From IMG/VR virus record IMGVR_UViG_3300033141_001134, positions 1 to 23,000 of that record: a DNA stretch of 23,000 nucleotides, one strand, 5' to 3'. The number at the start of each line of letters is the position of its first letter. The stretch's first letter is position 1. The translations under genes and the position numbers were made by a program. The notes under the pieces are model-generated. The model saw nothing but the letters and a program-made list of their open reading frames with translations, was not told where the DNA came from and made no database searches. Origin of the DNA: a virus. Below are positions 7,643-22,150 of this stretch, piece by piece.

Positions 7643-7861
7643 ATGAAATATACTTATGACGAAGAGGGCGATGTCTTTTATGCTTATGTAGGCAATCCGA
7701 GGGAATGCGCTTATGATGCAATCGGCAATGGGATATATCTTCGGAAGGATTATTCTTCTAATGAGTATATCGGATTTATGATTTTAGATTTTGTCGAACA
7801 ATTAGCTAAAAGTAAAGACTTCCATAAACTTCAAAAGGCCCTGGAAGAGGCCGTTAAGTGA
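7643..7861 (+). CDS. DUF2283-like protein
   Basis: This 72-residue protein matches the small DUF2283 pattern: YDEEGDVFYAYVG near the start, an acidic middle, IGNGIYLRKDY, and IGFMILDF. The family forms compact beta-rich units of unknown role, often near toxin-antitoxin or phage genes. ATG 7643 is used because the ATG 5 nt upstream runs into a stop after two codons. A GGGAG site lies 10 nt upstream. Confidence 0.65.
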   Translation: MKYTYDEEGDVFYAYVGNPRECAYDAIGNGIYLRKDYSSNEYIGFMILDFVEQLAKSKDFHKLQKALEEAVK

Positions 7862-7869
7862 GGAGTGGG

Positions 7870-8217
7870 ATGAAAAAGGTTTTAACTAAAGTTAAGGGTC
7901 TCTATCACCACAAAGATGGTAGACATATTGAGGGGCCGCATGCCAATCTTACCGGAAAGCACATTGGTCTTAGAGGCGACTGCACATGGCTGAGGGGTGA
8001 TTGCTCCAATCTGCGGGGCAATTGCTTCGGTCTTGAGGGCGACTGCACTAAACTTGTAGGTGATTGCTCTGGACTTATCGGTGATTGCACCGGGCTTAGG
8101 GGCGATTGCACGGGGTTAAGGGGCAACCTAAATGAAGCAGATTTAACGCCTAATGACCGGCAGAAAGGTGTTGATATTAAATCCCTTATAAAAACCACAG
8201 AGGGAGGTGAGGAGTGA
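7870..8217 (+). CDS. Tandem-repeat protein with GDC heptad repeats
   Basis: This 115-residue protein has a centre (about 33-86) that repeats a seven-residue unit, L-x-G-D-C-x-x, about eight times ([49 protein letters not shown]). The C-terminus ([20 protein letters not shown]) matches a tail I recall from phage proteins with L.GNV-type repeats. A regular beta-solenoid is likely. The aligned cysteines would stack along one face, which could form a metal or disulfide ladder. AGGAG precedes ATG 7870. Function unknown. It is followed by two more repeat proteins in the same operon. Confidence 0.75.
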
Positions 8218-8720
8218 TGGACAAAGATAATCTAAAGCAAATACTGGATAAGCATAAGATGTGGTTGGACAATAAGGGGGGCGGTCGCGCCAATCTGAGA
8301 AGTGCCGATCTGCGCGATGCCGATCTAAGCGATGCTAATCTAAGCTATGCCGCCCTGGGCTGTGCCGATCTGAGCGGTGCCGATCTGCGCGATGCCGATC
8401 TGAGCGATACCAATCTGAGCGGTGCCGATCTGAGAGGTGCCGATCTGAGAGGTGCTAATCTAAGTGGTGCCGATCTTGATTTTTCTTGTTGGCCTCTGTG
8501 GTGTGGTTCTAAGGATGTCAAGGTTGACCGTAGAATAGCCGCTCAACTGGCGGCACATTTTTGCGCTTTGGACTGTGATGATGATGACTATCGAAAGGCT
8601 CGATCCGCGATATTAAAATTTGCCAAAACCAGCCATATAGCACATCACATGATTAGTGGGGCGGATAAATCCCGGGACGATAAATTTCAAGGCGAGGCTA
8701 AAAAGATTAAAAATGTGTGA
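8217..8720 (+). CDS. Pentapeptide-repeat protein with conserved C-terminal domain
   Basis: The product is 167 residues. About thirteen A(D/N)Lxx pentapeptides (residues 24-88: [20 protein letters not shown] and so on) predict a right-handed quadrilateral beta-helix, the fold used by Qnr/MfpA to mimic DNA. The C-terminal part carries [37 protein letters not shown] and [13 protein letters not shown] recall this from many phage pentapeptide proteins, so it is a conserved module. AGGTGAGGAG lies just before ATG 8217. Role unknown; DNA mimicry is only an analogy. The DNA repeats of about 15 bp may allow length change by recombination. Confidence 0.85.
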
Positions 8721-9434: not shown

Positions 9435-9598
9435 AAGTATATGAAATTAATTTTGGGGGAGACTCCCCTATCATTTTCACGGAGAAAGACATTGATAAAT
9501 TACAGGGTGTTCTCCGGCGACTGCGCATGGGAAAAAAGATAAGGCTGACTATAGAAGAGGGTTGTCTTAGTGAAATAATTGAGGGAGAAATAAAATGA
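9431..9598 (+). CDS. Hypothetical 55-residue protein
   Basis: The peptide has a beta-rich start (MKVYEINFGGDSPIIFTEKD), then a helix with basic residues (KLQGVLRRLRMGKKIRL) and an acidic tail. AAGGTG lies 8 nt before the ATG. Overlaps with both neighbours fit a coupled operon. No domain is recognised. Confidence 0.6.
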   Translation: MKVYEINFGGDSPIIFTEKDIDKLQGVLRRLRMGKKIRLTIEEGCLSEIIEGEIK

Positions 9599-10421
9599 GT
9601 TGGTCTGACATAGATAGAAAAATAGCGCAAGAATCGGTTCCGTTAAAAGATTTTTTAGCAAAAAATAAATATAATTGGAAAACAGCGGAATCAATCCTAT
9701 GCTATGGATACCGTGCAAATGTGAGGCTAATTGTTGGGCCAAAAGTTTTTATCCGCGCCTTGATCAAACATTCAAAAATATAAAGGCCGATAAAAATGGA
9801 ATAAAGTTCGACATATCGAAAGTGGATGTTTGCAAATTGACGGGTCGGCCCTATGTATATGCAGTCCAGTGGCTGGGTGATATAGCGCACGAATCGGTGG
9901 ACGAGTTATATATCGCCCAGATATTTCATTTTTGTAGCTTTATAAATTATGATCGAATCCAACATGGACTCCGACCGCATATCTTTCTCTTTCTAACAAA
10001 GTGGCCTTATGGGTTATGGCAGATGCTATTGGATATTGTTTATTACCCTGGGCCATTAATCCCAACCAAAGATGGTATTTATGTCGGGACGACAATTACG
10101 GATCAGAATACATGCAGTCTAAGATTACCCGGATTGATTAAGTTCGCCGACGCCGGATTCAAAATATGGGTTTCTTACGAGCCCGTATACGGGCCGGTAG
10201 ATATTAATTATGAAACGCTGAAAAAGATTTCTCAGGTCGTGGCGGGCTGTGAGACTGGCCCCGATCGGCGTTTGGCTAATCTGGATTGGTTCAGGTCGAT
10301 ACGGGATCAATGTGAGCGCGCCGCAATATCCTTCTTTTTGAAACAATCTGATATAATCAACGGTAAGCGGTCGCGCCTGCTCGACGGGCGGGAATATAAT
10401 AATCTAACATGGAGGATGTGA
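9595..10421 (+). pseudogene. DUF5131 (phage Gp37/Gp68) protein, apparently frameshifted
   Basis: Two frames seem to make one gene. The first starts at ATG 9595 behind GAGGGAG and encodes MSWSDIDRKIAQES...NKYNWKT. The second runs to 10421 and continues NPMLWIPCKCEANCWAK, a cysteine cluster (C14, C16, C20 counted from the TTG at 9675). It ends CETGPDRRLANLDWFRSIRD then FFLKQSD and RLLDGREYNNL, the hallmark end of DUF5131. A break in frame of one base in about 9676-9690 would join NWKT to NPMLW, as family alignment expects. The only start for the second frame is a TTG without a ribosome site. No classical slippery heptamer lies there. DUF5131 proteins have a three-Cys motif reminiscent of radical SAM enzymes and often sit beside a TcmP partner, absent here. 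Activity is unproven. Confidence 0.7.
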
Positions 10422-15139: not shown

Positions 15140-15610
15140 TTGGCTCTGACTTCGAACAAATTATCCAAAAAGGCTAAACGTCTTGTTGTCCAAATGCTTG
15201 CCGAAGATGCTACTTATTCAGAAATAGTCGAAGCAGTAAAAGCTCAATTCAAAATCAGGATATCAAGTGCCAACGTTGGATTTTATAACGGCCACAGGGC
15301 TGATGAAATCCGGGATCTGCGCAAGCAATACTATGACAATCTAATTGAGGAATTTCCGTTAACGGCAAAGGGTTGTCGGATAAGAGAAATTGTTAATGAT
15401 TATAAAAAAGCCAAAAGCGGATTTTTGAGAAGCAGGCTCCGTGAAGAATTACGGAAGGAAATCGGAGAAGATGTCAAAACCCTTGCAGACGCTATGGCTA
15501 AGTCTGGTGGTGATAATATTGTCAACATCGGCATCACAGGCGACGCCGACCGTCTTATCGAAGAGTCAGCGGCTATTCTTGGCCTCGAGCGCACAGAAGA
15601 TAGAATGTGA
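15140..15610 (+). CDS. terS: Terminase small subunit
   Basis: This 156-residue protein would recognise the packaging site on phage DNA and deliver it to the large subunit. The N-terminal region (about 1-50) has helix-turn-helix character (SKKAKRLVVQMLAEDATYSEIVEAVKAQF) and is followed by long charged helices (about 60-125) typical of the oligomerising core; the end is short and acidic. The start is TTG 15140, with GGGAGG 8 nt upstream. Location before an unmistakable large subunit, and overlapping it, is the main evidence; the sequence itself is only broadly TerS-like. Confidence 0.75.
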   Translation: MALTSNKLSKKAKRLVVQMLAEDATYSEIVEAVKAQFKIRISSANVGFYNGHRADEIRDLRKQYYDNLIEEFPLTAKGCRIREIVNDYKKAKSGFLRSRLREELRKEIGEDVKTLADAMAKSGGDNIVNIGITGDADRLIEESAAILGLERTEDRM

Positions 15611-17186
15611 ATGGCCTGAGCTGGCGATTGCCCTCTACCATCACCGCAATACTCTTGGCGAGCCCATGATGTTTGCCCGGCCGGGCAGGCGGTGGGCTAT
15701 TCCGCTTTACAAAGATAAAGCCCATACCATAATCGTGATGAAGTCGGTCCAGTGCGGTGTGACTGAATGGCTGATCGTCAAAATGGCCGCATCAGTCTGG
15801 CAGGGGAAATCGATTTTATACGCCTTACCAACGCAAGATATTCGCAATGATTTTGTCAATAACCGTATTGATCCGCTCTTTTCCGATGTTGAATTTTACG
15901 CCAGAATGTCAACCCGGACTGATAACACCGGACTCAAGAAATTCAAGACAGGCGGCGGCGTGAAGTTTGTCGGCTCGCAGACGAGGACGGTATTCCGAGA
16001 ATATCCAGCTCAGATATTTATCGCCGATGAATACGACATCTGCGACATGAGCAATATAAATTATGGGATGGACCGTCTCGCCGCCGCTAAGGCATTGACC
16101 GGAGTCGAACCATATGTCTATTTCGTCAGTAACCCCTCCGTGGCCGGCTTTGGCATTGCCGAGAAATTTGACCAGTCGGATAAAAAATACTGGCATGTTA
16201 AATGCCCGCATTGTAACGAATGGCAGACGATTGACTGGTTCAAAAACATAGTCCGCCAGACTGACGACAATACATTCTCACTGCGAGACCTTACGCATAA
16301 TCCCTCCAACGGAAGCGGTGGAGAGCCTTGTGCTTTTTGCCGCTTCTGCAATAAGCAAATAGACAGACTTAGCCGGGGCGAATGGGTCGCCGAATATCCA
16401 GACAGGGACGTCTCCGGCTACCAAATATCGAGCTTATTCACCGACCAATTAACAATCACCTGGTTGTGGGATTATTTTACTCAGGGATTGCGTAATGCAA
16501 CCGTCATGCAACAATTTTGGAATTCATATCTTGGTCTGCCTTATTCTGGAGAAGGCGATAAAATCACGTATGATGTTCTGGCGGCCTGTTCCGGCAATTA
16601 CAAGATGCCGGCAACGGCCAAAGCAACAGTTGCAGGCATTGACGTTGGCAAGGTATTCCATCTGGTAGTTTCTTCTTTGCAGTCGGGAAAAATCCGGGAC
16701 GAATATATCGGCACTTGCCCTGACGTCCCGGATCTCCTTAAAAAGCTAAAGCAATATGGAGTTAACCGGTATATTATTGATGCAGGCCCTGAATTGCATA
16801 CCGCCAAAGCCATTATCAAAAAACACCCGGGCGGTTTTCTGTGCCGGTATAACACGAGCGAAAGTCCAAAAGGCCAGAAGATTGACCTGAAGGAACGAGT
16901 TATCACGCCCAACCGGACGGAGTCGATTGACAAAATGGTGGCGGCTTATATGGATAAGCTGATAATGATACCGGCCAGTTGGCACACGATATCAAATGGC
17001 GATTATGCGTCTCAAATGATGGCGCCGACCCGAATACTCGATGATAAGCGGCGCCCCCCGGTCTTTGTCTGGGATGAGGGCAGTCAGGCCGATCACTTTT
17101 TACATGGCGGCCGAGATGATGGGATTCTCAAGCAGACCATTTGGCGGGATGATAATTTAACCTTGTGGGCAAGAACAAGAGCATGA
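15471..17186 (+). CDS. terL: Terminase large subunit, GpA-like
   Basis: This packaging motor has an ATPase that pumps DNA into the prohead and a nuclease that cuts it. Counted from ATG 15471 (571 residues), there is a deviant Walker A (KSVQCGVT, 91-98, with the lysine at its start as in lambda gpA), Walker B IFIADE (183-188), and a zinc-like cluster C245/C248 with C287/C290/C293. The RNase H-like nuclease has Asp391 (AGIDVG), Asp437 (IIDAG) and Asp541-His542 (ADHFLHG). The protein is intact and of normal length. The start is uncertain: ATG 15471 has GGAG 3 nt upstream but overlaps terS by 140 nt; TTG 15519 or 15579 would reduce the overlap. The portal gene follows. Confidence 0.93.
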   Translation: MSKPLQTLWLSLVVIILSTSASQATPTVLSKSQRLFLASSAQKIECEWPELAIALYHHRNTLGEPMMFARPGRRWAIPLYKDKAHTIIVMKSVQCGVTEWLIVKMAASVWQGKSILYALPTQDIRNDFVNNRIDPLFSDVEFYARMSTRTDNTGLKKFKTGGGVKFVGSQTRTVFREYPAQIFIADEYDICDMSNINYGMDRLAAAKALTGVEPYVYFVSNPSVAGFGIAEKFDQSDKKYWHVKCPHCNEWQTIDWFKNIVRQTDDNTFSLRDLTHNPSNGSGGEPCAFCRFCNKQIDRLSRGEWVAEYPDRDVSGYQISSLFTDQLTITWLWDYFTQGLRNATVMQQFWNSYLGLPYSGEGDKITYDVLAACSGNYKMPATAKATVAGIDVGKVFHLVVSSLQSGKIRDEYIGTCPDVPDLLKKLKQYGVNRYIIDAGPELHTAKAIIKKHPGGFLCRYNTSESPKGQKIDLKERVITPNRTESIDKMVAAYMDKLIMIPASWHTISNGDYASQMMAPTRILDDKRRPPVFVWDEGSQADHFLHGGRDDGILKQTIWRDDNLTLWARTRA

Positions 17187-17237
17187 GAGCTGAGACATAA
17201 AATAAAAGGCATAAGGAAATGGCTGGCGAGAGTTATA

Positions 17238-18113
17238 TTGGGCAGGGAAGCCCTCAAGGCTCTCAGTTTTCCCCTTACAAGACAGGCCGATACTGACGCT
17301 AATATCATATACATGCCGAATGACGCCGAGGCCGAAACCAAGGCCGAACGCGCCGATTCTAACATTGCGACTTGTGTTCGACTAATTACAAACGCTCTGT
17401 CATGGCTACCGCTTGATGTCATGTCAGTCGATTACAATGACAAAGGTGACATCGAATACGAAAAGGAGCCGGATCATCCCGCGGCCCTGGTGCTTAATAA
17501 GCCTAATCCAATAATGACACGGCAGGAAATAGTCTCCTATATTGTTGAATCATGGATTTTGTCCGGCCGGGGAATAGTCAACATCGACAAAGAAGGGGAT
17601 GTCATAAACCTCTGGCCGATACAACCGTGGCGCATCGAAATTGAAAAAGAAAAGAACGCTCTATTCATGCCAACGGGTTATGTTCTTGACCGTGATTCAG
17701 GCCATGAACACAAATTCAAACTTGAAGAAATAATCTTTGTCAAGAATTTCAACATCCTCGATCTATATTATGGTCGGTCACATGTCGAGCCGCTTCGCCG
17801 ACAGATACTCATGGATTATTACTCCGAAACCTACAATAAAAACTATTTCAAAAATAACGCTACTCCGGGGAGTATGTTTGTCCCGGAGTTTGATTTCAAT
17901 GAAGAGGCCGCCAAGCAGTTCCGAAAAAACTGGAACAAAATGAACCGTGGAGTGGACAAGGCTTTTGGTTTCCTGGTCGCCCCGCAAAAAGGTGACCTTA
18001 AAACAATAGCTCAACCGCTGGATGATGCGGCCTTCATGCAAATGAGTCGTGCAAACCGGGAAAAAATATTTGGCCTGTTTGGCCTCCCGCCTTCACTCGG
18101 GCAAATCATATAG
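17238..18113 (+). CDS. Portal protein, main part (frame ends early)
   Basis: Portal forms the ring through which DNA enters and leaves the head. This 291-codon piece has the HK97/SPP1-type core: RADSNIATCVRLITNALSWL, then KPNPIMTRQEIVSYIVESWI, ILSGRGIVNID, FNILDLYYGRSHVEPLR, NNATPGSMFV, and REKIFGLFGLPPSLG near the end. Two things are odd. The coding frame extends upstream to 17187 (LRHKIKGIRKWLARVIL reads as a true N-terminus), but no standard start opens it. ATG 17183, overlapping the terminase stop, is one frame away; TTG 17238 is the first usable start in frame. At 18111 a TAG stops the frame just after the conserved PP motif, and the remainder continues in another frame. Confidence 0.85.
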   Translation: MGREALKALSFPLTRQADTDANIIYMPNDAEAETKAERADSNIATCVRLITNALSWLPLDVMSVDYNDKGDIEYEKEPDHPAALVLNKPNPIMTRQEIVSYIVESWILSGRGIVNIDKEGDVINLWPIQPWRIEIEKEKNALFMPTGYVLDRDSGHEHKFKLEEIIFVKNFNILDLYYGRSHVEPLRRQILMDYYSETYNKNYFKNNATPGSMFVPEFDFNEEAAKQFRKNWNKMNRGVDKAFGFLVAPQKGDLKTIAQPLDDAAFMQMSRANREKIFGLFGLPPSLGQII

Positions 18114-18373
18114 CTCTGGCGCTTACCCGGCAATTCCTGTGGCGACATTATGATGAACAGCATGTATTCAAATATGATTTCTCGAATGTTGAAGCTCTCC
18201 AGTCGGATAAACTCAAAGAAGCACAAAAATATAAAATTGCCTGTGGCGGTCCATGGATGACGGTTAATGAAGTCAGAGCAAAACAGGGACTCGAAGAGCT
18301 TGAAGGCGGGGACGAAATCAGATCCGGTCAAATTATATATCAGGGGGAGGGGTCCGAAAAACTCTCGCTATAA
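18101..18373 (+). pseudogene. Portal protein C-terminal part, out of frame
   Basis: Reading frame two, from 18101 to the TAA at 18371-18373, encodes ANHIALALTRQFLWRHYDEQ, then VFKYDFSNVEALQSD, WMTVNEVRAKQGLEELEGGD. These are hallmarks of portal C-termini (an LN/LTRQF helix, F.FDFS..E, G..T.NEVR...GL). No start codon with a ribosome site precedes it. Between the PP motif and LTRQF the family normally has about 35-40 residues; here only about 17 can be placed. A small deletion that also changed frame fits best. A programmed shift is unlikely, since no slippery sequence is seen. Confidence 0.8.
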
Positions 18374-19154
18374 ATATTGGAAGGCTGTTGATGATTTCAG
18401 AGAATCAAAAGAGCGGGGATTTTCGAAGATCATGCGCTCATTCTTCAAACAGCAGGCCGCCCGAGTCCTGGAGGGATTGTCGAATATCACCGGCAAGGGT
18501 GCGCTTATGAGGTATGGCATTCATAAGGTTTATTGGGGCATGAAAGATGATGACCTACCAGATGATGTCAGACAGATATTTGATATGTCGGCGGAAAACC
18601 AGGCTCTTGGTGAGGTAACCGAACCATATATCAAGAGAGTAATCAAAGAATCAGGGGATAGAGTATTCGACGAATTGATGATTGAGAATTCTTTTGATGT
18701 CGAAAATCCGATGGTCCAGGACGCCATTGATAATCTGAAAACCAAGATCAAGGGCATAAACGAAACCAGTTATCAGCGGATAAAGAATCTCCTGAGTGAA
18801 GGATATGCCGAGAACTGGTCGCTCGGTGACTTTGAACGAGAAATCCGAAGCCTATATAAGAATTTCGCGGAAAACAGAATACCGGCCATTGCCAGAACGG
18901 AAACTCTGAAGGCCGTCAATGGCGGGACTATGTATGCCTATAATCAAGGCAGAGTTGAAAAAAAGGAATGGATTGCAAGCATGGACGCCAACACCAGAGA
19001 CACTCATGCAGTTCTCGATGGTGAAGTCGTTGGCGTCAATGATACGTTCAATCGCGGGTCCGTGCCAATGAAATATCCGGGCGATCCGAATGCGCCCGCG
19101 TCTGAAGTTGTAAACTGTCGCTGTGCAATAATGCCAGTAATAGAGGATGATTAA
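18267..19154 (+). CDS. Head morphogenesis protein, MuF/SPP1 gp7-like
   Basis: This minor head protein, up to 295 residues long, is packaged with or attached to the portal. The sequence begins in frame near 18267 (ATG), inside the portal tail; the region from SRYKYWKAVDDFRESKERGF (about 33-52) onward is convincing. A long helical stretch leads to the MuF core: AIARTETLKAVNGGTMYAYN, EWIASMDANTRDTHAVLDGE, and the signature NCRC (about 283-286). The true start is unclear. ATG 18267 lacks a good ribosome site, ATG 18432 would lose plausible coding, and a strong GGGGGAGGGG at 18345-18354 has no normal start behind it. Related phages sometimes fuse portal and MuF, so a third frame break is possible. 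Confidence 0.85.
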   Translation: MKSEQNRDSKSLKAGTKSDPVKLYIRGRGPKNSRYKYWKAVDDFRESKERGFSKIMRSFFKQQAARVLEGLSNITGKGALMRYGIHKVYWGMKDDDLPDDVRQIFDMSAENQALGEVTEPYIKRVIKESGDRVFDELMIENSFDVENPMVQDAIDNLKTKIKGINETSYQRIKNLLSEGYAENWSLGDFEREIRSLYKNFAENRIPAIARTETLKAVNGGTMYAYNQGRVEKKEWIASMDANTRDTHAVLDGEVVGVNDTFNRGSVPMKYPGDPNAPASEVVNCRCAIMPVIEDD

Positions 19155-19180
19155 CAATGGGGCGGGAAGGAATTACAAAA

Positions 19181-19693
19181 ATGAGCAAGAAAATGAAATC
19201 GCTCGCGTTTGTATTTGTCGTGGTGATATTTGCCTCATTTGTTTGCGGGGATATCACTATGGCGGGCGAAAAACCGAAGGGGCAATCAATGTCGGGCAGT
19301 GCGACATTCGATTACACCTTGTCGTCCACTGCAACCAAACGGGACACCTCAAGTGCAATGTGGAAGTTCACCAGTCTGGCTGATTACAGCACTATCAAGG
19401 GCCGTATGTATGCCGGATTTTACACGATGGACTCGGCGGGAGTGGATACAGCCAAAGATACCATTTATGTATATGCCTATTCAAATTCGAATACGGGCTG
19501 GTTTTCCGACCGCCTGGTATTTACCGATACTATCGTCCCGGTGGATTCGACATACGAGGAAATCAGTTGGGATTTGTCCGACTCGACCGTTTACGATTAC
19601 ATACAATGGAAAATCGTGACGAATGTCAATGATGCCGCACCGGTCGGCGCCATCTGGAAATGTAAGGTGTATATCGAGCAATATGCAAAGTAA
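19181..19693 (+). CDS. Exported beta-rich protein inside the head gene cluster
   Basis: This protein has about 170 residues. A classical signal sequence starts it: MSKKMKSLAFVFVVVIFASF (basic start, long hydrophobic core), with cleavage probably before or near MAGEKP. The mature part is Ser/Thr/Asp/Tyr-rich with alternating strands (SGSATFDYTLSSTATKRDTS; IYVYAYSNSN; KCKVYIEQYAK), probably a beta-sandwich. A start at ATG 19181 has AAGGAA 8 nt upstream; ATG 19157 is an alternative. The Cys near the signal end (SFVCG) does not fit a good lipobox. An exported product between MuF and capsid genes is unusual; it could be a cargo (moron) gene modifying the host surface, or a virion protein with a misleading start. 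Confidence 0.7.
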   Translation: MSKKMKSLAFVFVVVIFASFVCGDITMAGEKPKGQSMSGSATFDYTLSSTATKRDTSSAMWKFTSLADYSTIKGRMYAGFYTMDSAGVDTAKDTIYVYAYSNSNTGWFSDRLVFTDTIVPVDSTYEEISWDLSDSTVYDYIQWKIVTNVNDAAPVGAIWKCKVYIEQYAK

Positions 19694-19736
19694 ATTTTTA
19701 TGCTTGAAAATACCAGAAAACCAGTAAGGCGGTTGT

Positions 19737-21836
19737 ATGAATCATAAAGACTTTCAAATTAAAAATTGGAAATCGAGTCAGGAAAACGAGTCGCTTATCA
19801 TTGAGGGTTGGGTATCAACTGATGATTTGGACTCATACAACGATATTGTCGAACCCACCGCCTTTGCTCCTGTTATCGATAAGTATCTGAAAAAGCCTAT
19901 CGTTCTTTGGATGCATCAGTTCTACGATCTGGCTATTGGTAAAACCCTGTCTCTGGAAATCATCGATACTCCAAGAAATGAGGAGCCTTATGGAAGTAAG
20001 CGCGGACTGTGGGGTAAGATTGAAATCGCGGGGACAACCACAGGGAAAGACGTTCAGATTCTACTTGATATGGGAGCCGTCAATTCATTCAGCTACTGGT
20101 ATGAAATTGCAGAGGACGGTGCGACGGTGACAACCCTCAATGGTGAAACGATAAGGCATATCACAAAATTTAGTGCATTGCATGAGATTTCGGTGTGCAA
20201 TCTCGGCGCCGATTGGGATGCCATAATCAAAGTAGTTAAATCAAAAAATCTAAATCTTAAATCATTGAATGTATCTCCGGAGGGCAGGGAGAATAAAGAA
20301 CACAAGGAGGTTCACGTGTCACTCAACAAGGAAGAAGTGAAGAGTGTCGTCAGCGAATCCCTGGACCCTCTGAGCAAAGACATGGAAACGGTCCAGGTCA
20401 CAGTTGATGACCTGAAGGGGCAGATTGGCAAACTGACGGAATTCAAAAAAGAAATGCTGGAGGTCAAAGACCGGAACAAATCCGAGATTGACGAAAAAGT
20501 CGCTCGCATGGAGGAGGACTTCAAAAAGGCGCTCGATGAATTCAATGTCGAATTCAATAAAGCCAAACAAGCCAAACTCGGAAATATCGGGATTGCCGGA
20601 GGTCTGCCCAAAGACCTGAAGGCTTTGGTTATGGAACCGACCCCGAGACTGAAATCTCTTTTACCTTCCGACAGGTTCGGGATGATAAAAGAGTTTCAGA
20701 AAAAGCATGATGATCTCCTACTGGTTGACGCCACGCTCGAGGCATCGTCCAGAAAGTTCGGCCCTATTGATGGTCTTGGTGAATATCACAATCACCCCCG
20801 CCATCAGAGAATAAAAAACCTGAACATCTACAAAGAGTTCGATGAGTTCCGCAAGGCAATGGATTCCACGACGGCAAGCGAGGGGGACGAATGGGTGCCG
20901 ACCGGAATGTCGCGGGATATCATAGAGCTGGTTGACGTTCAGCTCAAGGTGGCTGATCTGTTTGACTCTTTCACCATGCCGACTTCACCGTTTGATATTC
21001 CGGCGGAAGGTGCCGACACCGAGGCGGTGATTGCTTCGGAAACAACGGCGGTTACGGCTGCCCGGGCGGATACGACCGAGCAGACTCCGGGAACCGGCAA
21101 AGTAACCTTCACGGCCGAAAAACTCCGCGGTAGATATCAGATATCAAGAGAGCTGACCGAGGATTCGGCGGTTGCTATCATCCCCTTTGCCAGGAAAAAG
21201 ATTGCTAAGTCAATGGCGAGAGCCGAAGAGCAGGCAATTATAAATGGGCAGGAGACGGCCGACATCGACACTGGATACGGCGGAATCAGTTCAACATCGG
21301 CCAAGAAAATCTGCGACGGTCTGAGATACCATACTCAGTCAAATGCGCAGATTGATCTATCGACTTTTAATGAAGACGGTCTCCGAAATATGCGCGCAGT
21401 CATGACTGAAGGTGGGCCTTATGGTCTATATCCCGAAGATATTGCATTCATCTGCTCCGCGAAGGGTTATCTGAAGCATTTCCTCAAAGACCTGGATTCG
21501 GTATTGACGGTTGATAAGTATGGCCCCAATGCGGTTGTCCTTAAGGGCGAACTTATGAAGTTCGACAATATCCCGGTGATTCCCTCCGGGTTTGTTCAGG
21601 ACGATCTGAATGCCTCGGGTATCTACGATGCGACTACCACGGACAAGACCATCGTTTTGTTGGTTTACAGAGATGGTTTCCGGCGTGGCATCCGGAGAGA
21701 TATCGAGATCATGACAGAGTATAATATGTTCCACGATATCTATGACATTGTGGCGTTCAAGCGTTGGGATTTCCAGCCGGTATATACGGTCGCCTCAAAC
21801 TATATCACTGCTTATGGTTATGGAGTGACGACCTAA
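19737..21836 (+). CDS. Fused prohead protease and HK97-type major capsid protein
   Basis: One 699-codon frame joins functions usually on two genes. Residues 1-170 are an HK97 gp4-type prohead protease: EGWVSTDDLDSYNDIVEPTA, His60 in VLWMHQ, Ser117 or Ser119 in VNSFSYWYE, and HEISVCN near 149-155. Residues about 196-290 are charged, coiled-coil like (EEVKSVVSESLDPLSKDMET; KKEMLEVKDRNKSEIDEKVA), equal to the scaffolding delta region. Residues about 375-699 are the HK97-fold capsid: ASEGDEWVPTGMSRDIIELV, GKVTFTAEKLRGRYQISREL, ARAEEQAIINGQ, VYRDGFRRGIRRDIEIMTEY. AAGGCGG precedes ATG 19737 by 4 nt. Self-cleavage should release mature capsid protein and remove protease and scaffold. The frame is continuous. 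Confidence 0.93.
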   Translation: MNHKDFQIKNWKSSQENESLIIEGWVSTDDLDSYNDIVEPTAFAPVIDKYLKKPIVLWMHQFYDLAIGKTLSLEIIDTPRNEEPYGSKRGLWGKIEIAGTTTGKDVQILLDMGAVNSFSYWYEIAEDGATVTTLNGETIRHITKFSALHEISVCNLGADWDAIIKVVKSKNLNLKSLNVSPEGRENKEHKEVHVSLNKEEVKSVVSESLDPLSKDMETVQVTVDDLKGQIGKLTEFKKEMLEVKDRNKSEIDEKVARMEEDFKKALDEFNVEFNKAKQAKLGNIGIAGGLPKDLKALVMEPTPRLKSLLPSDRFGMIKEFQKKHDDLLLVDATLEASSRKFGPIDGLGEYHNHPRHQRIKNLNIYKEFDEFRKAMDSTTASEGDEWVPTGMSRDIIELVDVQLKVADLFDSFTMPTSPFDIPAEGADTEAVIASETTAVTAARADTTEQTPGTGKVTFTAEKLRGRYQISRELTEDSAVAIIPFARKKIAKSMARAEEQAIINGQETADIDTGYGGISSTSAKKICDGLRYHTQSNAQIDLSTFNEDGLRNMRAVMTEGGPYGLYPEDIAFICSAKGYLKHFLKDLDSVLTVDKYGPNAVVLKGELMKFDNIPVIPSGFVQDDLNASGIYDATTTDKTIVLLVYRDGFRRGIRRDIEIMTEYNMFHDIYDIVAFKRWDFQPVYTVASNYITAYGYGVTT

Positions 21837-21855
21837 TAATGGTGTTATCAAAACG

Positions 21856-21876
21856 GGGGGCGTTCAAGGCGCCCCC
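21856..21876 (+). other. GC-rich stem-loop directly after the capsid gene
   Basis: GGGGGCG (21856-21862) pairs with CGCCCCC (21870-21876), with a 7-nt loop. It starts 20 nt after the capsid stop, and no T-run follows (ATTAATAAT). It probably stabilises the 3' end of the capsid message or partly attenuates downstream genes. Confidence 0.6.
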
Positions 21877-21898
21877 ATTAATAATAGGAGACAATACA

Positions 21899-22150
21899 AT
21901 GGCCATAGTCAGAATGACAAAAGCCGCACCTGAGATTTATGTCGGGGGCATACTGCGCAAGCCTGGGGATATTTTCGAAACTGAATCACGGTGGATTCAT
22001 AATATGCGGAAATCGCACCCGGATTGGATTGAAACCCCGGCACCCTCAGAAATAACCCAAGAGGAGTTCAAGAAGCTGAAAAAACCGGTCGGTGAGAATA
22101 AAGTCAAAGAGCCGGTCGGTGAGAACAAGGCCAAGAAGAAAGATAAATAA
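21899..22150 (+). CDS. Small structural or linker protein
   Basis: This 83-residue protein begins MAIVRMTKAAPEIYVGGILR and PGDIFETESRWIHNMRKSHP, and ends with a Lys-rich tail that repeats PVGENK twice. Small proteins of this type often lie between capsid and connector genes and may be capsid-associated, but no family is recognised. AGGAG (21886-21890) lies 8 nt before ATG 21899. It overlaps the next start by 1 nt. Confidence 0.7.
   Translation: MAIVRMTKAAPEIYVGGILRKPGDIFETESRWIHNMRKSHPDWIETPAPSEITQEEFKKLKKPVGENKVKEPVGENKAKKKDK

Follow-up and report, generated by a model that had tools for sequence, protein, structure and literature searches.

Does the portal gene of this virus record encode a working protein, or is it broken? 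The 23,000-base stretch analysed here (the window) carries an integrase gene (372-1400), recombination genes of the YqaJ and Rad52 types, and genes for terminase, portal, a MuF-like protein, capsid and connector. Its head module is of the HK97 type, where a single protein is expected to combine the portal with the MuF-like minor head protein, and the virus record contains no second portal copy. The original prediction, made from this DNA alone, was that the portal gene is damaged at its start and again after the PP motif. That observation was partly confirmed, and its interpretation is partly supported: the portal frame is broken after the PP motif, the proposed damage at the start is not supported, and two further lesions, a break before MuF and a 20-nt loss in the gene for the terminase large subunit (TermL), had been passed over. 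Rfam and tRNA searches of the window gave no match, and a plasmid search returned nothing near-matching it. Elsewhere in the window, short tandem pentapeptide-like repeats make up two neighbouring genes at 7858-8720, of which the second matches PF00805. In a DUF5131 gene (9595-10421), the coding signal runs in frame 1 from ATG 9595 to ~9690 and then in frame 0 to 10421, possibly another frameshift.

The portal-MuF region, on the plus strand, is read in three pieces. The N-terminal part of the portal (17187-18113, frame 0) contains the PF04860 portal core (E 9.1e-44) and ends at TAG 18111-18113; a middle/C-terminal part (18107-18373, frame 2) matches the PF04860 tail and ends at TAA 18371-18373; and the MuF-like minor head domain, normally fused to the portal, lies in frame 0 (18354-19154; PF04233, E 1.9e-13). 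Against a family profile built from 11 relatives (L088, L093-L098, L102, L131, L133 and L134), the pieces, searched as a set of three sequences, gave E values of 1.8e-72, 7.2e-20 and 5.3e-93, and they occupy profile positions 39-297, 328-408 and 434-694, i.e., they stand in order on one protein. Codon preference, scored after training on other window genes, follows frame 0 to ~18090-18100, frame 2 over ~18110-18340, and then frame 0 again. These switches indicate that the three-frame layout is more than chance. All 11 aligned relatives carry portal and MuF in one stop-free ORF (nine are complete at the 5' end, where L097 and L134 are cut), and further fused loci exist beyond the 11 aligned; L089-L092, L123 and L125, six loci from outside the clade, have portal and MuF in separate ORFs. 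None of the breaks seen in the window, in TermL, portal or linker, is present in any relative examined.

The nearest relatives in the head module are L102 (38% identity in the portal N-terminal part and 48% in MuF), L131/L132 (39% and 43%) and L133 (33% and 42%). Some handles denote the same DNA: L002, L088 and L103 are one contig, and L102, L130 and L148 another. Single-protein portal scans of viral and genome collections found no relative, and a single-protein TermL scan of genome contigs gave no match; L002 was recovered in another search with TermL as the query, and further relatives came from profile scans. Compared with L088, positions 17104-22142 of the window are a mosaic: TermL and the connector share 93-95% of their DNA sequence, and the head cassette between them has been exchanged for a distant one, with 27-37% identity in protein. 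The window gene shares domain order, profile order and neighbours (TermL upstream, S78 protease-capsid downstream) with HK97-family portal-MuF fusions (PF04860 + PF04233; PHROG 2662), including the Geobacillus phage GBK2 portal, L102, L131 and L133. Whereas these relatives use one ORF, the window gene is in three frames and 26-27 residues short. By sequence profile and by fold, the family is matched best by the RcGTA portal Rcc01684 (6te8/6tba) and the HK97 portal (8cez), whose chains of ~390-425 residues are too short for a MuF fusion.

The first break lies after the PP motif. At TAG 18111-18113 the frame changes from 0 to 2, a shift of -1, just as predicted: the portal frame is closed by a TAG, and sequence of the C-terminal part is read one base off. 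The stretch between the first two pieces is exactly 34 residues long in 11/11 aligned relatives, all of them uninterrupted at the position of the TAG, and measures ~7 residues in the window. Since the closest portal relative found is only 39% identical, we infer the size of the loss, from the constancy of this 34-residue length, as 26-27 residues (~79 nt), with the junction at 18105-18112. The predicted loss of family residues thus stands, at 26-27 by the family profile and not at the ~20 first proposed. A six-frame search of the window did not recover the missing residues (top score against the profile 2.7 bits, E 0.78), in a test of limited power in which four control loci also scored weakly.

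Mapped onto the portal of L102, the absent residues are ~302-327 and include 18 residues of a predicted 32-residue helix at 310-341. An AlphaFold2 model of this portal (mean pLDDT 64, with 76-90 over most of the helix block) matches the HK97 and GTA portals in fold, and the RcGTA portal structure 6te8 retains the stretch that is absent from the window. In the window, the helix after the PP motif is therefore incomplete. With most of this helix gone, the protein would not be expected to form a normal portal, and on that reasoning the claim that no normal heads could be made with this portal would hold.

A second frame jump, from frame 2 to frame 0, is placed by codon preference, the family profile and a homopolymer check in the portal-MuF linker (18340-18362, plus strand), which adjoins runs of G5, G4 and A5. 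At this position the relatives carry portal and MuF fused in one ORF. In the window MuF does not follow the portal within an ORF, its frame differing from that of the portal middle; in-frame ATGs for MuF stand at 18267, within portal sequence, and at ~18432.

The third lesion lies upstream, in TermL (GpA-type ATPase; 15441-17186 with a tentative start, plus strand, frame 0; PHROG 675, PF05876), whose frame is also open for ~56 codons within the small terminase gene (15429-15610). The TermL genes of L002 and the window are 94.6% identical over 1622 ungapped nucleotides (15485-17106), after which 20 nt are absent from the window, near 17097-17106. An ATG (3 bp) stands at each edge of this loss. 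Past it, 24 nt (17104-17127) match L002 1640-1663 at 96%, and the distance to the original stop, TAA 17158-17160, is equal in window and L002. The original 3' end of the gene (17104-17160, plus strand) is thus still there, now out of frame in frame 1, and the shifted frame runs on to TGA 17184-17186. Out-of-frame sequence replaces a C-terminal helix that L102 and L088 keep. It is because of this frameshift that the TermL stop overlaps an ATG at 17183-17186. The window and L088 give a dN/dS of 0.010/0.255 in TermL and of 0.028/0.283 in the connector; with values this low, both genes were under selection until recently.

Taken together, the locus is probably a fused portal-MuF gene from an HK97-type prophage that was recently inactivated. 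The element combines an integrase with inactivated morphogenesis genes (the TermL end and portal-MuF), as expected of a defective prophage, and the undecayed codon usage, along with the low dN/dS of TermL and connector, points to recent decay. Short deletions, together with a frameshift in the linker with its homopolymer runs, would have arisen once the prophage was no longer selected to make particles; unless the portal came from another phage, the element would be unable to assemble a normal portal vertex. Two features count against inactivation: the breaks cluster within 1.3 kb rather than being spread, and most other genes, including capsid and connector, look intact.

The main rival, that the breaks are artefacts of sequencing, amplification or assembly in a real phage with intact fused portal-MuF and terminase genes, strikes us as rather unlikely. 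In its favour, codon usage is undecayed on either side of every break, the neighbouring genes look intact, TermL dN/dS is low and the linker break sits among the G5, G4 and A5 runs. However, deletions of 20 and ~79 nt account for two of the three events; their edges show no long repeat, and losses of this kind are rarely made by read errors or graph collapse.

The start of the portal gene has a different history. As the original prediction described, the TermL stop overlaps an ATG (17183) whose frame closes after five codons (MRAET; 17183-17200, plus strand, with stop TAA 17198-17200), and portal-like sequence runs in another frame, frame 0, from 17187. The portal frame is +1 to this ATG, with an in-frame CTG at 17190; standard in-frame starts follow at TTG 17238 and ATG 17313. 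The original start could have been lost to an indel that fell after ATG 17183 and ahead of the portal frame, a reading that we consider quite improbable. It would explain why no in-frame ATG, GTG or TTG precedes 17238 even though the alignment with the L102 N-terminus begins near 17190, but the same +1 relation between ATG and portal is found in 4/4 independent nearest relatives with intact portals (L088, L102, L131 and L133). A two-frame layout shared with the closest relatives, which would count against the original prediction, is thus seen at the start and not at the TAG, through which 11/11 relatives read.

Each of these four relatives has an ATG, out of frame, four bases upstream of an in-frame TTG (portal starts at L131 5206, L133 4758, L102 4941 and L088 1724). 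The ATG frame closes after 5, 4, 5 and 3 codons in L088, L102, L131 and L133, respectively, and the portal follows in the +1 frame. The window has its ATG seven bases before the CTG in the same frame relation; private to the window are CTG instead of TTG and a spacing 3 bases longer, the latter leaving the frame unchanged. Three of the four relatives carry GGCGAGAA 8-9 bases upstream of the ATG, where the window has GGCAAGAA. In L102 the ATG doubles as an internal codon near the end of an upstream ORF. Elsewhere an ATG at the four-base offset was found for 4/205 TTG first starts, a set that includes some duplicate contigs and was used to test an offset that had been noticed beforehand; beyond the clade, most relatives start at an ordinary in-frame ATG. 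Since the four portals are only 31-44% identical to one another, retention of ATG-N-TTG by chance is unlikely. On this comparison, the two-frame start, with ATG-N-TTG and the portal in +1, is the ancestral layout of the clade and not damage.

A second start within a few bases, in another frame, is thus conserved in 4/4 independent clade relatives, and ATG-N-TTG may be a conserved, putatively ambiguous initiation site. We propose, tentatively, that this layout regulates portal dosage: AUG would open a decoy of 3-5 codons and the +1 UUG would open the portal, so that start competition, perhaps with reinitiation, limits the portal to the few copies needed per head; the window would then hold a damaged version in which the layout survives. 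One pair of contigs from different metagenomes, L131 and L132, bears on this. They differ at one base in 3417, and in L132 that base (127, equivalent to L131 5234) creates a TAG ten codons downstream of the putative start at TTG; both have a further in-frame ATG downstream of the TTG. As far as these two contigs indicate, the TAG and the later ATG speak against TTG as the only start. A +1 frameshift joining the ATG mini-ORF to the portal was also considered and is not favoured, as the shift codons and stops vary between members and there is no common site.

The putative site resembles ambiguous overlapping initiation sites of E. coli, AUGUG and GUGUG, which include narQ with termination-reinitiation (PMC9841429). 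In the cases described there, as here, two starts lie a few bases apart in different frames and one of them meets an early stop. Unlike those sites, the present one is AUG-N-UUG, has an offset of 4 rather than 2, belongs to a phage portal gene and is known from sequence alone. No description of an ambiguous portal start, or of such a portal frameshift layout, was found at the level of titles and abstracts in the open-licence PMC literature.

That ribosomal frameshifting or a genuinely split portal/MuF yields working products from the three frames is very improbable: each of the three parts gives a clean frame signal, separate portal and MuF ORFs do occur outside the clade (L089-L092, L123 and L125) and ATG 18267 could start MuF, but the residues lost after the PP motif, in a stretch length-conserved in 11/11 relatives, are missing from the DNA and recoding cannot supply them, the frame overlap (18026-18113) contains no in-frame slippery heptamer (X XXY YYZ), and the nearest relatives are fused. 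A programmed -1 frameshift at the TAG was rejected on the first two of these grounds and because relatives do not conserve the layout, and a genuine portal/MuF split because the nearest relatives lack it.

If recent inactivation is the right explanation, the broken portal gene is a case of ordinary prophage decay, and it cautions against taking this record for a functional phage. If the start layout of the clade acts as a translational throttle on the portal, it would be a simple answer to the problem a tailed phage faces in making few portal and many capsid subunits from one operon.
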